Below, one piece after another: positions 45,529 through 49,623 of a stretch of DNA of 64,000 nt. Under the pieces are notes generated by a model. That model was not told the DNA's origin. It made no database searches and saw only the letters and a list, made by a program, of their open reading frames with translations. The DNA is from Microcella alkalica (GTDB lineage Bacteria > Actinomycetota > Actinomycetes > Actinomycetales > Microbacteriaceae): assembly GCF_014595885.1 (NCBI RefSeq), contig NZ_JABUKC010000003.1, positions 124,001 to 188,000 on the forward strand, given 5' to 3'. Each line of letters begins with the position of its first letter. The stretch's first letter is position 1. The translations under genes and the position numbers were made by a program.

Positions 45529-46164
45529 TCAGGCGACGGAGCCGGTGCGGAGCTGGGCGAGGAGACCCTCGACCCTCGCCGTGATCGCGTCGCGAGCCGC
45601 ACGCATCCCCTCGATGCCGCCCGGCACCGGGTCGGCGATCGCCCAGTCCTCGTACCGGCGGCCGGGCAGCACGGGGCACGCATCGCCGCAGCCCATCGTG
45701 ATGACGTGGTCGGCGCCGCGCACGAGATCGTCCGTCAGCGGCTTCGGGTACTCCGCGAGCACCGGGATGCCGACCTCGTCGAGCACCTCGGCCACGCCGG
45801 AGGCGATGCCCGCACCCGGCTCAGATCCCGCCGTCATGACGGTCACGCGGTCGCCCGCGAGCGCGCGCAGAATCGCGCCAGCCAGCTGCGACCGGCCGGA
45901 GTTCTCGACGCAGACGAACAGCACGGAGGGCGTGGCGGCGGAGGCGACGCCCTCGGCGCGCGCGATCGCGGCGAGCCGATCGGCGGCGAACCGGGCCGTC
46001 AGTGATGGCAGGAACTGCGTGATCGTCGCGGTCGCGGCGAGCCGCCGGTAGCTGTCGTCGACGACGGCCTGCACGGTCTCGGGCCCGACCATGCCGGCGT
46101 AGCGCGCGGCGAGGCGGGCCGAGATGCGCCGCGCGACGTCGGGAACCGGCAGCGACTCGCTCAT
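45529..46164 (-). CDS. arsC: Arsenate reductase with N-terminal helical domain (ArsC, LMW-phosphatase fold)
   Basis: A 211-aa enzyme. Residues 1-75 form a three-helix region similar to the middle part of the ArsR-ArsC fusion (both contain SLTARFAA-RLAA). The catalytic loop is Cys85-Val-Glu-Asn-Ser-Gly-Arg-Ser, and Cys159 and Cys163 lie in MGCGDACPV. These match arsenate reductases that use mycothiol or thioredoxin. Its ATG overlaps the stop of the upstream arsC (ATGA). Third arsenate reductase domain of the island. Confidence 0.86.
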   Translation of the reverse strand: MSESLPVPDVARRISARLAARYAGMVGPETVQAVVDDSYRRLAATATITQFLPSLTARFAADRLAAIARAEGVASAATPSVLFVCVENSGRSQLAGAILRALAGDRVTVMTAGSEPGAGIASGVAEVLDEVGIPVLAEYPKPLTDDLVRGADHVITMGCGDACPVLPGRRYEDWAIADPVPGGIEGMRAARDAITARVEGLLAQLRTGSVA

Positions 46165-46574
46165 GCGCCCGGCAGCAGCTCGGCGACGAGGCCCTCGATG
46201 CGGCGGCGGATCTCGTCGCGGATCGGCCGCACGGCCTCGAGCCCCAAGCCGGCGGGGTCGTCGAGCTCCCAGTCCTCGTAGCGCTTGCCGGGGAACACGG
46301 GGCACACGTCGCCGCAGCCCATCGTGATGACGACGTCGCTCTCCTGCACGGCCTCGGTGGTGAGCACCTTGGGCACGTTGTGAGCGATGTCGATGCCCTC
46401 CTCGGCCATCGCCTCGATCGCGACGGGGTTGATCTGGTCCTTCGGCGCCGAGCCCGCCGAGAGCACCTGGACGCGGTCGCCTGCGAGGTGCTGCAGGTAG
46501 CCGGCGGCCATCTGGGAGCGGCCGGCGTTGTGCACGCAGACGAAGAGCACGGTGGGGATGCGCGAATCGGTCAT
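46161..46574 (-). CDS. arsC: Arsenate reductase (single-domain ArsC, LMW-phosphatase fold)
   Basis: A 137-aa reductase. The P-loop is Cys13-Val-His-Asn-Ala-Gly-Arg-Ser (FVCVHNAGRSQ), with Cys87 and Cys91 in MGCGDVCPV. It reduces arsenate to arsenite, which is then exported. No ribosome site precedes the ATG at 46574; TATGCT lies 7 bases upstream, which suggests a leaderless mRNA. The stop is coupled to the next arsC. Start at the longer upstream ATG was rejected because it would cover the promoter-operator. Confidence 0.9.
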   Translation of the reverse strand: MTDSRIPTVLFVCVHNAGRSQMAAGYLQHLAGDRVQVLSAGSAPKDQINPVAIEAMAEEGIDIAHNVPKVLTTEAVQESDVVITMGCGDVCPVFPGKRYEDWELDDPAGLGLEAVRPIRDEIRRRIEGLVAELLPGA

Positions 46575-46601
46575 GCTCGCAAGCATAGACAGACATCTAT
46601 G
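46575..46601 (-). promoter_or_regulatory. Operator and leaderless promoter of the arsC-arsC operon
   Basis: ATAGAC-AGAC-ATCTAT (46585-46600), extendable as CATAGA-N6-TCTATG, is a near-copy of the operator at 47584-47599. On the minus strand TATGCT ends 7 bases before the arsC ATG, the spacing of leaderless actinobacterial promoters. An ArsR dimer here would block the -10. Confidence 0.6.
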
Positions 46602-46644: not shown

Positions 46645-46698
46645 GGCGCTCAGCCGAGCGTCGCGAGACCGGGCGCTCAGCCGAGACTCGCGAGCAGC
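46645..46698. repeat. 27-bp tandem duplication across the arsR-arsC stop codon
   Basis: GGCGCTCAGCCGAG-NN-TCGCGAG occurs at 46645 and again at 46672, a 27-base period. The second copy contains the last codons and the TGA of the ArsR-ArsC fusion; the first is a non-coding copy just downstream of the gene. Confidence 0.7.
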
Positions 46699-47585
46699 TC
46701 GCGCACGCGGGCGTCGACGTCGTCGCGGATGCGCCGCACCTCCTCCATCGGCCGCCCCACCGGATCGTCCACCGGCCAGTCGAGATAGCGTCGGCCCGGG
46801 TAGACGGGGCATGCGTCGCCGCAGCCCATCGTCACGACGACGTCGGCCGCGCGCACCGCCTCATCGGTGAGCGGCTTCGGGAACTCGCCGCCGAGTGGCA
46901 CCCCGATCTCGTCGAGCGCCGCGACCACCGAGGCCCGCACGGCGTCGGCGGGCGCCGAACCCGCCGTGCGCACGACCACCCGGTCGCCGGCGAGCTGCCG
47001 CAGGATCGCCGCGGCGAGCTGCGAGCGGCCCGCGTTCTGCACGCACACGAAGAGCACCTCGAGCGGACGATCGACGTCGTCGTGCCGCTCGGCGGCCGCG
47101 AGGGCCGCCAGCCGCTCGGCGGCGAAGCGCGCCGTGAGCGACGGCAGCCGCTGCGAGATGCCCGCGCGCTCGGCGAGCAGGTCGTAGCTCTCGAGCACGT
47201 AGCGCTCGATCGTGCCGCGCGAGAAGACGCCGTCGAACCGCTGCGCGAGGTCGCCGATGATGCGCTGCAGCACCTGGCCGGAGACGCGTGCCGGGGCCGG
47301 CACTTCGAGCAGCTCGACGACGCGCTCGCGCTCGAGGCCCGCCACCGCGTACCAGGTGCGGCGCCCGTCACGGGTCGCCTCGACGAGGCCGGCCTCGCGC
47401 AGCAGCCGCATGTGGTGCGACACCGTCGGCTGGCGCAGGTTGAGAGCCCGCGCGAGCTCCGTGACCGTGGCGCGCCCGTCAGGGGCGGCGAGCAGGAGCC
47501 TGAGCATGGATGCGCGGCTCGGGTCCGCGAGCGCGCGCAGCGCGGCATCCGCCCCCGCCTCGCCGCCCCGCGCACCGGCACTCAT
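46677..47585 (-). CDS. ArsR-ArsC fusion: arsenic-responsive repressor joined to an arsenate reductase
   Basis: A 302-aa protein. Residues 1-95 are an ArsR winged helix (LRALADPSRASMLRLLLAA...LNLRQPTVSHHMRLLREAGLV). Residues about 100-170 are the three-helix domain seen in the 211-aa ArsC. From 175 it is an LMW-phosphatase-fold arsenate reductase with Cys181 (FVCVQNAGRSQ), Cys255 and Cys259 (MGCGDACPV). There is no Cys before residue 181, so the repressor part lacks the As(III)-binding thiols of known ArsR types. No ribosome site; TAGACT lies 7 bases before the ATG, as for a leaderless mRNA. Divergent from the aquaporin. Confidence 0.9.
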   Translation of the reverse strand: MSAGARGGEAGADAALRALADPSRASMLRLLLAAPDGRATVTELARALNLRQPTVSHHMRLLREAGLVEATRDGRRTWYAVAGLERERVVELLEVPAPARVSGQVLQRIIGDLAQRFDGVFSRGTIERYVLESYDLLAERAGISQRLPSLTARFAAERLAALAAAERHDDVDRPLEVLFVCVQNAGRSQLAAAILRQLAGDRVVVRTAGSAPADAVRASVVAALDEIGVPLGGEFPKPLTDEAVRAADVVVTMGCGDACPVYPGRRYLDWPVDDPVGRPMEEVRRIRDDVDARVRELLASLG

Positions 47586-47614
47586 AGACGCCAGTCTATC
47601 GAGCGTCGTACGCT
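47584..47614. promoter_or_regulatory. Divergent leaderless promoters with ars operator (arsR-arsC / aquaporin)
   Basis: The perfect palindrome ATAGAC-GCCA-GTCTAT (47584-47599) overlaps the ATG of arsR-arsC. The minus-strand -10 TAGACT lies inside it, 7 bases from that ATG. On the plus strand TACGCT (47609-47614) lies 6 bases before the aquaporin ATG. Neither gene has a ribosome site, so both are probably leaderless and blocked by one bound dimer. Confidence 0.65.
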
Positions 47615-47620
47615 GAGCCC

Positions 47621-48331
47621 ATGTCCGTCGCCGCCGAGCACGCGCCCGCCCTCGCCTCCGCCTCGACGCCCGCCCTGCCCTTCCGGGCGCTCGTCGAGGC
47701 CGCCGGCAGCGCCGTGCTCGCCGCGACCGTCGTCGGCTCCGGCATCATGGCGACGCGCCTCAGCGACGACGTCGGCGTGCAGTTGCTGCTCAACGCCCTG
47801 CCGACGGTGCTCGTGCTGTTCGTGCTCATCAGCGCCCTCGGCGGCCTGAGCGGCGCCCACCTCAACCCCGCCGTCACGCTCGTCATGCTCGGCCTGCGGC
47901 GCAGCACGGCCGGCGAGGCCGCCGCCTACGTGCCCGCGCAGATCGTCGGATGCCTCGCCGGCACCGCCCTCGCGAACGTCATGTTCGCGCTGCCCGCGAT
48001 CGAGCTCAGCACGACCGACCGGGCCGAGCCCTCGACGATGCTCGCCGAGGTCGTCGCGACCGCGGGCCTGCTCGCCGTCATCCTGCTGTTCGCGCACCAG
48101 GGCAAGGAGGCCCTCATCGCGCCCGCGGTCGCCGGGTGGATCGGCGCCGCCTACGTCTTCACGAGCTCGACCAGCTTCGCCAACCCGGCGATCACGATCG
48201 GCCGCATCGCCACCGACACCTTCTCGGGCATCGCCCCCGAGAGCGCCGCGGGCTACATCGTGGCGCAGCTGCTCGCGGCCGCCCTCGTGCTCGGAGCCGC
48301 CCTGGTGGTCCGAGGCGGGCGCCGACCATGA
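47621..48331 (+). CDS. Aquaporin-family channel linked to arsenic resistance
   Basis: A 236-aa MIP-family channel with six helices and both pore motifs: Asn82-Pro-Ala (AHLNPAVT) and Asn188-Pro-Ala ([10 protein letters not shown]). In Sinorhizobium meliloti AqpS, encoded in an arsR-aqpS-arsC operon, lets arsenite formed by ArsC flow out. The divergent arrangement with an ArsR-ArsC gene suggests the same role here. No ArsB or Acr3 pump gene was seen in the window. The stop overlaps the MFS start (ATGA). Confidence 0.87.
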
Positions 48332-49623
48332 GCGCGCCGACGTCGCGCCGCGTCGAGGGCACCTACTACGCGCTCACCCTCGGCAGCACGCTCGCGGCGT
48401 CGTTCATCTGGGGCATCAACACGCTCTTCCTGCTCGATGCGGGGCTGACCAACCTCGAGGCCTTCGCCGCGAACGCGTTCTTCACCGCCGGCATGGTGCT
48501 CTTCGAGATCCCCACCGGCGTCGTCGCCGACACCTGGGGGCGCCGCGCCTCGTACCTGCTCGGCACGCTCACGCTCGCGGTCACGACGGCGCTCTACTGG
48601 CTCATGTGGGTGTGGCAGGCGCCGTTCTGGGCCTGGGCGCTCGTGTCGGTGCTGCTCGGGCTCGGCTTCACCTTCTTCTCGGGCGCGGTCGACGCCTGGC
48701 TCGTCGACGCCCTGCGGGCCACCGGGCACCGGGGCGCCCTCGAGGGGGTCTTCGGGCGCGCGCAGGTGGTCTCCGGCGTGGCGATGCTGACCGGCTCGGT
48801 CGCGGGCGGCGTCATCGCCCAGGCCACGAACCTCGGGGTGCCGTTCCTCGTGCGGGCCGGCGTGCTCGTGGCGATGCTCGTCATCGCCGCCGTGCTCATG
48901 CGCGACCTCGGGTTCACGCCCGTGCGCGGCGCCACCCCCGGCGCGGCCGTGCGCGAGGTCATGCACGCCTCCGTGCGGCACGGCCTGGGCCGGCCGCCGA
49001 TTCGCTGGGTGATGATCGCGACGCCGTTCACCGCGGGCGTCGGCATCTACGCCTTCTACGCACTGCAGCCCTACCTGCTCGAGCTCGGCGGCGACGACGG
49101 CGCCTACGCGCTCGCGGGCCTCGCGGCCGCGATCATCTCGGGCGCCTCGATCGCGGGTGGCGCGCTCGCCCCGCTCGTGCGCCGCCTCGTGCGGCGCCGC
49201 ACGACGCTGCTGCTCGCCTCGGCGGCGACCTCGGCCGCCGTGCTCGTGGCCTTCTCATTCGTGCAGCAGCTCTGGGTGGCGATCGCGCTGCTCGCCGCCT
49301 GGGGCATCGCCTCCTCGATCGGGCAGCCGGCGCAGCGCGCCTACCTCAACGACATGATCCCCTCGCAGCAGCGCGCCACCGTGCTGTCGTTCTACTCGCT
49401 GCTCGGCAGCGCGGGCGGCGTCGTCATCCAGCCCGCGCTCGGGCGAGCCGCCGACGTCGGCGGCTACGGGCTCTCGCTGCTCTGGGGTGGCGCGATCTCG
49501 GCGCTCGCGCTGCCGTTCCTCGCCCTGAGTCGAGCGCAGCACGACCCCGCCGACACCGCGGTCGCCCCCGGCGAGGCCGCGGCCGGCCCCGACGACGACG
49601 CGAGCGACGCGCGCGAGCGCTGA
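48328..49623 (+). CDS. MFS permease in the arsenic island
   Basis: A 431-aa major-facilitator permease with about 12 helices and the motif-A loop [12 protein letters not shown]. The C-terminal 40 residues are a charged cytoplasmic tail. It is coupled to the aquaporin by an ATGA overlap, so it is under the same ars operator. MFS proteins such as ArsJ export arsenic compounds, but ArsJ is paired with a GAPDH gene that is absent here. It could export an arsenic species or something unrelated. Confidence 0.82.

Follow-up and report, generated by a model that had tools for sequence, protein, structure and literature searches.

Arsenic repressors are held to sense arsenite through cysteine thiols, and the question raised by this locus is how arsenic might be sensed by a repressor whose DNA-binding half has none. 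The protein is encoded on the minus strand at 46677-47585 of the window (the whole 64,000-nucleotide stretch of DNA analyzed here) by a 909-base frame referred to below as arsRC. The first-pass annotation had described it as a 302-aa ArsR-ArsC fusion with no cysteine in the repressor half, and had proposed that release from DNA must depend on the reductase domain unless a partner senses arsenic. The description was borne out by the translation and by Pfam and NCBIfam. The only cysteines are residues 181, 255 and 259, and an As(III) site of two or three cysteines in or near the winged helix is absent from residues 1-180, which contain no cysteine.

ArsR and ArsC share one reading frame in arsRC, with a three-helix bundle between them. 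Pfam and NCBIfam place an ArsR helix-turn-helix at about residues 14-82, the bundle (PF21234/NF046112) at 104-163 and an LMWPc/ArsC domain at 177-298. In the AlphaFold2 model (mean pLDDT 87.6, pTM 0.65) the winged helix spans residues 7-92 (47310-47567), the bundle 103-166 (47088-47279) and a thioredoxin-type ArsC domain of LMW-PTP fold 175-301 (46683-47063), all on the minus strand. The ArsR/SmtB winged-helix fold is indicated by a match to NF033788 (E 6.3e-22) and by the order of elements in the model, and the PDB sequence matches of this half were Rv1994c, NmtR and an arsenic-responsive ArsR. A three-helix bundle is a feature of some actinobacterial reductases. The best sequence and fold match for the ArsC part, and its best solved relative, was Cg_ArsC1' of Corynebacterium glutamicum (PDB 3t38), which has in common with arsRC the bundle and the thioredoxin-type ArsC but lacks an ArsR half. 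Like enzymes of that kind, arsRC has the bundle, a CX5R loop and two further cysteines. Its Cys181 (codon 47043-47045), Cys255 (codon 46821-46823) and Cys259 (codon 46809-46811) make up the thioredoxin-type ArsC triad and are the counterparts of C88, C162 and C166, the residues given as the catalytic cysteines of Cg_ArsC1' in PMC6514093.

Cysteine positions were tabulated across 115 distinct fusion frames taken from named genome contigs, 299 genomes of the same family (probably Microbacteriaceae) and 394 of the class. These comprised 76 Cys-free fusions, 25 CXC fusions (whose ArsR half carries one or more N-terminal cysteines and a CxC motif, 25/25), 12 short fusions without the bundle and 2 fusions with one or two cysteines (L126 and L026). 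Five of the 76 are partners in the split pairs described below (L009, L030, L051, L059 and L217), which leaves 71, and four more lie outside the main clade (L216, L220, L032 and L035), which leaves 67. Because these 67 were defined by having zero cysteines in the ArsR core, the fair figure for the clade of arsRC is 67 of 69 fusions without cysteine in the ArsR half. The exceptions are L126, with one cysteine at column 40 (one position of the former site), and L026, with two elsewhere. The lack of cysteine is a property of a lineage, and a chance loss in one genome can be rejected. The possibility that a conserved Cys pair had been lost by chance in this one sequence does not hold for this clade, although the separate CXC clade has a conserved set of cysteines (25/25). 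The opposite generalization, that all fusions are Cys-free, was likewise rejected since the 25 CXC fusions retain three cysteines. The same ArsC catalytic triad is found in 25/25 of the CXC fusions (for example L051, L068 and L061).

The 67 Cys-free fusions contain 204 cysteines in 20,508 residues; 201 of these belong to the triad and 3 lie outside it. Among other proteins of the same loci, there were 39 cysteines in 8,446 residues of aquaporins, 104 in 11,827 residues of ArsO and none in the 1,685 residues of four MFS matches. Columns 40 and 42, which are Cys in all 25 CXC fusions and Thr in arsRC, were also compared. Column 40 is Leu in 36 of the 67, Thr in 11, Ser in 8, Gly in 4, Arg in 3, Pro in 2 and Met, Gln and Ala in one each; column 42 is Gly in 48, Thr in 16 and Ser in 3. 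With no His, Asp or Glu at either column in the 67, a swap of metal ligands at the old As(III) site was rejected. The ArsR-half consensus residues conserved in this clade and not in the CXC fusions are Thr23, Leu48, Leu50, Arg75, Trp78 and Ser80 (arsRC itself deviates with Ser23 and Ala80), and no newly conserved His, Asp or Glu was found in the ArsR half of the 67.

Some other material was recovered by the same searches. The twelve short fusions (about 230 aa; L040, L042, L054, L060, L072, L074, L075, L078, L129, L189, L229 and L234) form a third separate clade (99), and a bundle-ArsC gene lies downstream within 5 kb of 11/12 of them. Two partial matches (G141:C26:294117-294878 and G234:C1:2062161-2062862) have two in-frame stops each and are apparently broken copies. 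In a plasmid collection 126 records matched the query, but only one of them over at least 80% of it.

The loss of cysteine was also seen in a second gene arrangement. Fifteen distinct Cys-free stand-alone ArsRs were present in the loci, and 15/15 were followed on the same strand by a bundle-ArsC gene at -4 to +61 bp, a gap measured to whichever ATG or GTG lies closest to the end of the ArsR frame; this choice of start favors short gaps. In the product of the partner gene a degenerate ArsR-like domain comes first, followed by the bundle and an ArsC with all three catalytic cysteines. Of seven partners scanned, Pfam HTH_20 was above the cut-off in four (L009, L030, L128 and L217), below it in L051 and not found in L056 and L129. 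The model of the L009 partner has the winged-helix order of elements. The recognition motif QPTVSHH has been lost from the split partners, with a near match in the alignment in L217 only. The 50 matches listed in a fold comparison of the degenerate domain were of the ArsC/LMW-phosphatase type plus one methyltransferase, with no ArsR, so the ArsR nature of this domain rests on Pfam and on the order of elements in the model. Judged by sequence, the pair is a split version of the ArsR/bundle/ArsC machine, and a heterodimer is the natural reading that we would infer from it.

A search with the ArsR part only, using the same 299 genomes, gave 71 ArsR hits in 70 places that were followed up (30 loci returned and 40 hand-picked among the matches listed, with places already in the set omitted). 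Of the 24 hits without core cysteines, 19 were fused to bundle-ArsC and the other 5 were coupled to it, and all 47 hits unlinked to ArsC had at least two core cysteines; these counts exclude the CXC fusions already in the set, which are ArsC-linked and have cysteines. Four stand-alone ArsRs had one cysteine. One of these (L145) has a misplaced start, and the other three (L057, L076 and L162) resemble other ArsR groups and have no ArsC partner, so the rule that connects cysteines with ArsC linkage holds for this subfamily only.

The genes around arsRC are consistent with an arsenate-resistance cluster. A stand-alone arsenate reductase gene, arsC, lies at 46161-46586 on the minus strand (family searches used 46161-46577), and its end is overlapped (ATGA) by a gene at 45529-46164 on the same strand for a three-helix-bundle ArsC without an ArsR half. 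Divergent from arsRC on the plus strand is a gene for an aquaporin-family (MIP) channel at 47621-48331, a candidate exit for arsenite, followed with an ATGA overlap by an MFS transporter gene at 48328-49623. The genome, placed near Microcella by its nearest named matches, gave no match to the ACR3 and ArsB models, which makes the channel the only arsenite exit that can be named with these models, as a candidate. The MFS protein has a likeness to drug exporters below the cut-off and is also found in L007 and L008; in L137 an MFS transporter stands in the aquaporin's place. In the genus of the window, the fusion of L123 lies directly beside a polyphosphate kinase gene with no aquaporin or MFS gene between, and L120 has a neighbor of matching length and position.

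Two operator-like palindromes were found in the cluster. The first, ATAGACTGGCGTCTAT on the minus strand (47584-47599), overlaps the arsRC start codon and a -10-like hexamer, TAGACT. The second, ATAGATGTCTGTCTAT on the minus strand (46585-46600), overlaps an in-frame ATG, taken here as the start of arsC, and lies inside a promoter-like TTGCCA-17-TATGCT. Across the genome the pattern ATAGAYnnnnRTCTAT has exactly two matches without mismatch, one at the start of arsRC and one at that of arsC, and a reversed-pattern control had 0. With up to two mismatches to ATAGACNNNNGTCTAT, the window has 2 sites against 0.16 expected, and 1 of 100 shuffles had 2. Of the 71 non-split Cys-free fusions, 49 have ATAGAC-N4-RTCTAT on their start codon and 50 have ATAGAY-N4-RTCTAT no more than 250 bp downstream. 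The palindrome was found at neither place in any of the 25 CXC fusions, with two copies elsewhere in CXC loci. The suggestion that it is conserved in the split pairs was mostly rejected, as it is upstream in 2/15 only. A T that is unneeded for symmetry is fixed after the first arm and creates the TAGACT 7 nt before the ATG, an arrangement that resembles a leaderless promoter. Seven Cys-free fusions (L012, L152, L154, L157, L162, L163 and L165) lack the second arm and retain the -10-like hexamer before the start (TAGACT, or TATACT in L012); several of them follow ArsO or have a Cys-bearing ArsR nearby. The palindromes, as sequence features, support a working DNA-binding half in arsRC.

The Cys-free state appears to have arisen once. 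In a tree of the ArsR half, which has few columns (94) and a bootstrap that is not fully settled, 49 Cys-free halves (35 fused, 14 split) were separated from 36 Cys-bearing ones by a branch of 100/98, and the CXC fusions grouped as a single clade (100/99) within the Cys-bearing set. The sample held 35 of the 67 Cys-free fusions, 14 of the 15 split ArsRs, 23 stand-alone ArsRs and 13 of the 25 CXC fusions. Because the Cys-free halves are all on one side of the 100/98 branch, they point to one evolutionary origin, and one change of state is enough for the loss of cysteine. The association between Cys loss and ArsC linkage is thus a sample of one. A tree of the reductase half, made with a quick method, also set the CXC fusions apart (98). 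Another group in it (support 90) took in 55 of the 59 Cys-free fusions, 12 of the 15 split partners and 7 rows that carry a stand-alone label. On their sequences, the CXC and Cys-free types are two separate fusions. In eight loci of small-genome relatives (L256, L257, L260-L263, L267 and L272) a stand-alone three-Cys (CxC) ArsR was found together with an ATAGAY palindrome, and in seven of the eight this ArsR is beside aquaporin and arsC genes. These loci are a plausible image of the state before cysteine was lost. The tree label solo3C_op denotes any palindrome in the locus, and L293, which carries this label, groups with other ArsRs.

The neighboring channel and transporter genes differ between the two fusion types. 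Of the 25 CXC fusions, 22 had ACR3 within 5 kb and 1 had an aquaporin (MIP) gene at that distance; for the 67 Cys-free fusions the corresponding counts were 1 and 40. These counts are not independent by descent. ACR3 was over the cut-off in 3 (G071, G239 and G283) of the 42 genomes at the head of the match list (full-length matches of at least 56% identity, compared by hand) versus 47 of the 299 overall. A rule in which aquaporin implies arsenate sensing and ACR3 implies arsenite sensing was considered; the association is strong, yet it is not usable as proof because three-Cys ArsRs of small-genome relatives share the same palindrome beside aquaporin and arsC. For the same reason the palindrome and the channel alone do not imply arsenate sensing.

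How could such a protein respond to arsenic? By its anatomy, with no thiol in the ArsR half, only the ArsC half could do arsenic thiol chemistry. In the ArsC cycle, an arsenate adduct forms on the first cysteine, disulfides follow to the second and third, and thioredoxin reduces the enzyme. Solved ArsC structures titled as reduced, oxidised, disulfide intermediate and Trx-ArsC complex were among the fold matches, and these catalytic states offer shape changes that could pass through the bundle. The most likely reading, to which we give just under an even chance, is that the fused reductase senses arsenate turnover. A dimer of arsRC would bind both palindromes while ArsC is reduced and empty. 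Reduction of arsenate in the ArsC half, through the thiol-arsenate adduct and then the disulfides, would alter the shape of ArsC, and this change would act via the three-helix bundle to pull the ArsR dimer off the DNA, with thioredoxin resetting the switch. Phosphate could not trigger arsRC under this proposal because it is not reduced, and specificity for arsenate would come from chemistry and not from affinity. Induction would provide more reductase, and arsenite would leave via the divergent channel. With the same near-even confidence, arsRC may be described as an autorepressor that controls the arsenate-resistance cluster and has shifted arsenic sensing out of its DNA-binding half into the reductase.

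The case for sensing by the reductase is stronger for three results of the sequence comparison: linked hits were Cys-free (24/24) and unlinked ones had cysteines (47/47), the split pairs have retained the link to ArsC (15/15), and no substitute ligand special to the clade appeared in the ArsR half. In 67/67 Cys-free fusions there is also no variation in the triad, in the Arg and Ser of the P-loop or in the Asp-Pro pair, although a stand-alone arsC is directly downstream of 59 of the 67. The two palindromes and the lack of ACR3 and ArsB matches in the genome also speak for this reading, as does TtSmtB, an ArsR that reportedly prefers arsenate, albeit one with three cysteines (PMC5658604). Applied to the whole lineage the proposal is more doubtful, with perhaps somewhat better than one chance in three: turnover by the fused or partner reductase would lead to lost DNA binding, which would make the catalytic cycle the effector, and the split heterodimer would work likewise, with a DNA-reading ArsR and an enzyme-bearing degenerate ArsR-ArsC subunit. 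Several results count against sensing of turnover. The CXC fusions retain the triad together with three ArsR-half cysteines, so an intact fused ArsC needs no sensing role. The palindrome is missing from the start of 22/71 non-split Cys-free fusions and 13/15 split pairs, and a Cys-bearing ArsR within 5 kb of some Cys-free fusions, as counted below, could be the sensor there.

One alternative keeps the sensor in the reductase and changes what is sensed. As(III) would be caught by two or three of the triad's thiols, which would make arsRC a conventional As(III) repressor with a moved site. All 67 have the three triad cysteines, the title of one solved ArsC with this fold (1lju) gives it as complexed with arsenite, and such a trap would equally predict that Cys-free ArsRs are linked to ArsC. 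However, ArsC enzymes release arsenite as product, and bound arsenite would inhibit the enzyme. The triad and loop residues tested are moreover identical in the fused and nearly all stand-alone enzymes, and we consider this alternative unlikely.

Sensing may instead lie outside arsRC. The ArsR half would then be a plain autorepressor deaf to arsenic, with the fusion tying the level of enzyme to operator occupancy, which we judge improbable; any induction would be due to some other regulator, for example a Cys-bearing ArsR encoded separately, and this part is equally improbable. The CXC fusions, which join ArsR and ArsC without moving the sensor, favor such an arrangement, as does the presence of a separate Cys-bearing ArsR within 5 kb of 27 of the 67 Cys-free fusions. 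Against it, such an ArsR was not found within 5 kb of 40 of the 67, the fusion in the window included; for 33 of the 40 the available sequence extends 3 kb or more to either side. No separate Cys-bearing ArsR was found in the ars cluster of the window; of ten HTH_5 hits in the genome, arsRC is the only one in the cluster and the other nine are elsewhere, and both palindromes are in this cluster. The split pairs also maintain a tight coupling of ArsR with enzyme. The earlier proviso about a partner that senses arsenic is therefore relevant to part of the clade, with no visible sign of such a partner in this cluster.

The least likely reading, one to which we give little weight, is sensing of an arsenic or phosphate oxyanion by non-Cys residues of the ArsR half or the bundle: bundle residues Arg108, Arg116 and Arg158 are each Arg in 65 of the 67 and TtSmtB reportedly responds to arsenate (PMC5658604), but the clade-specific residues of the ArsR half listed above include no His, Asp or Glu, and stand-alone bundle-ArsC proteins share Arg158 in 89/91, Arg108 in 56/91 and Arg116 in 33/91.

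ArsR-ArsC fusions as such are already known. ArsRC2 of Microbacterium sp. A33 is likewise an ArsR-ArsC fusion, likened to arsRC here by its published description, and it is said, in work by Achour-Rokbani and colleagues from 2010, to repress its own operon. Two fusion clusters are described and the A33 fusion is drawn as ArsR-ArsC2 in PMC6514093, and PMC6205960 reports fusions in L. ferriphilum, Microbacterium and Sinorhizobium and names that of A33 among them. The Paracoccus ArsRC (Chen et al. 2022) couples arsenate reduction to sensing according to PMC9479143, in which the ArsR half is described as binding As(III) from its own reductase. This differs from arsRC, where no thiol was found in the ArsR half that could take up ArsC-made As(III). 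The CXC fusions have ArsR and the ArsC triad in common with arsRC and differ by their ArsR-half cysteines, their ACR3 neighbor and the lack of the palindrome. TtSmtB of Thermus thermophilus, an ArsR-family repressor reported to prefer arsenate, is a stand-alone protein with Cys 10, 62 and 64, unlike the Cys-free fused ArsR half (PMC5658604). In Paracoccus denitrificans, thiol oxidation is reported to release an ArsR (PMC9137774). Titles, the starts of abstracts and the passages cited above gave no description of a Cys-free ArsR-ArsC fusion or a split pair, and the papers on the A33 and Paracoccus fusions may already describe some of it. The pairs of a Cys-free ArsR with a degenerate ArsR-bundle-ArsC protein (15/15) appear to be new here.

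The data presented here describe a clade of repressors without those thiols that has stayed linked to a reductase across deep divergence and in two arrangements of the genes. This clade makes it directly testable whether an ArsR switch can take the catalytic state of an enzyme as its input, and whether reaction, and not binding, can let a cell distinguish arsenate from its look-alike phosphate. If the proposal is true, it would provide an arsenate-specific part for biosensors and a clean case of a sensor that has moved between domains.
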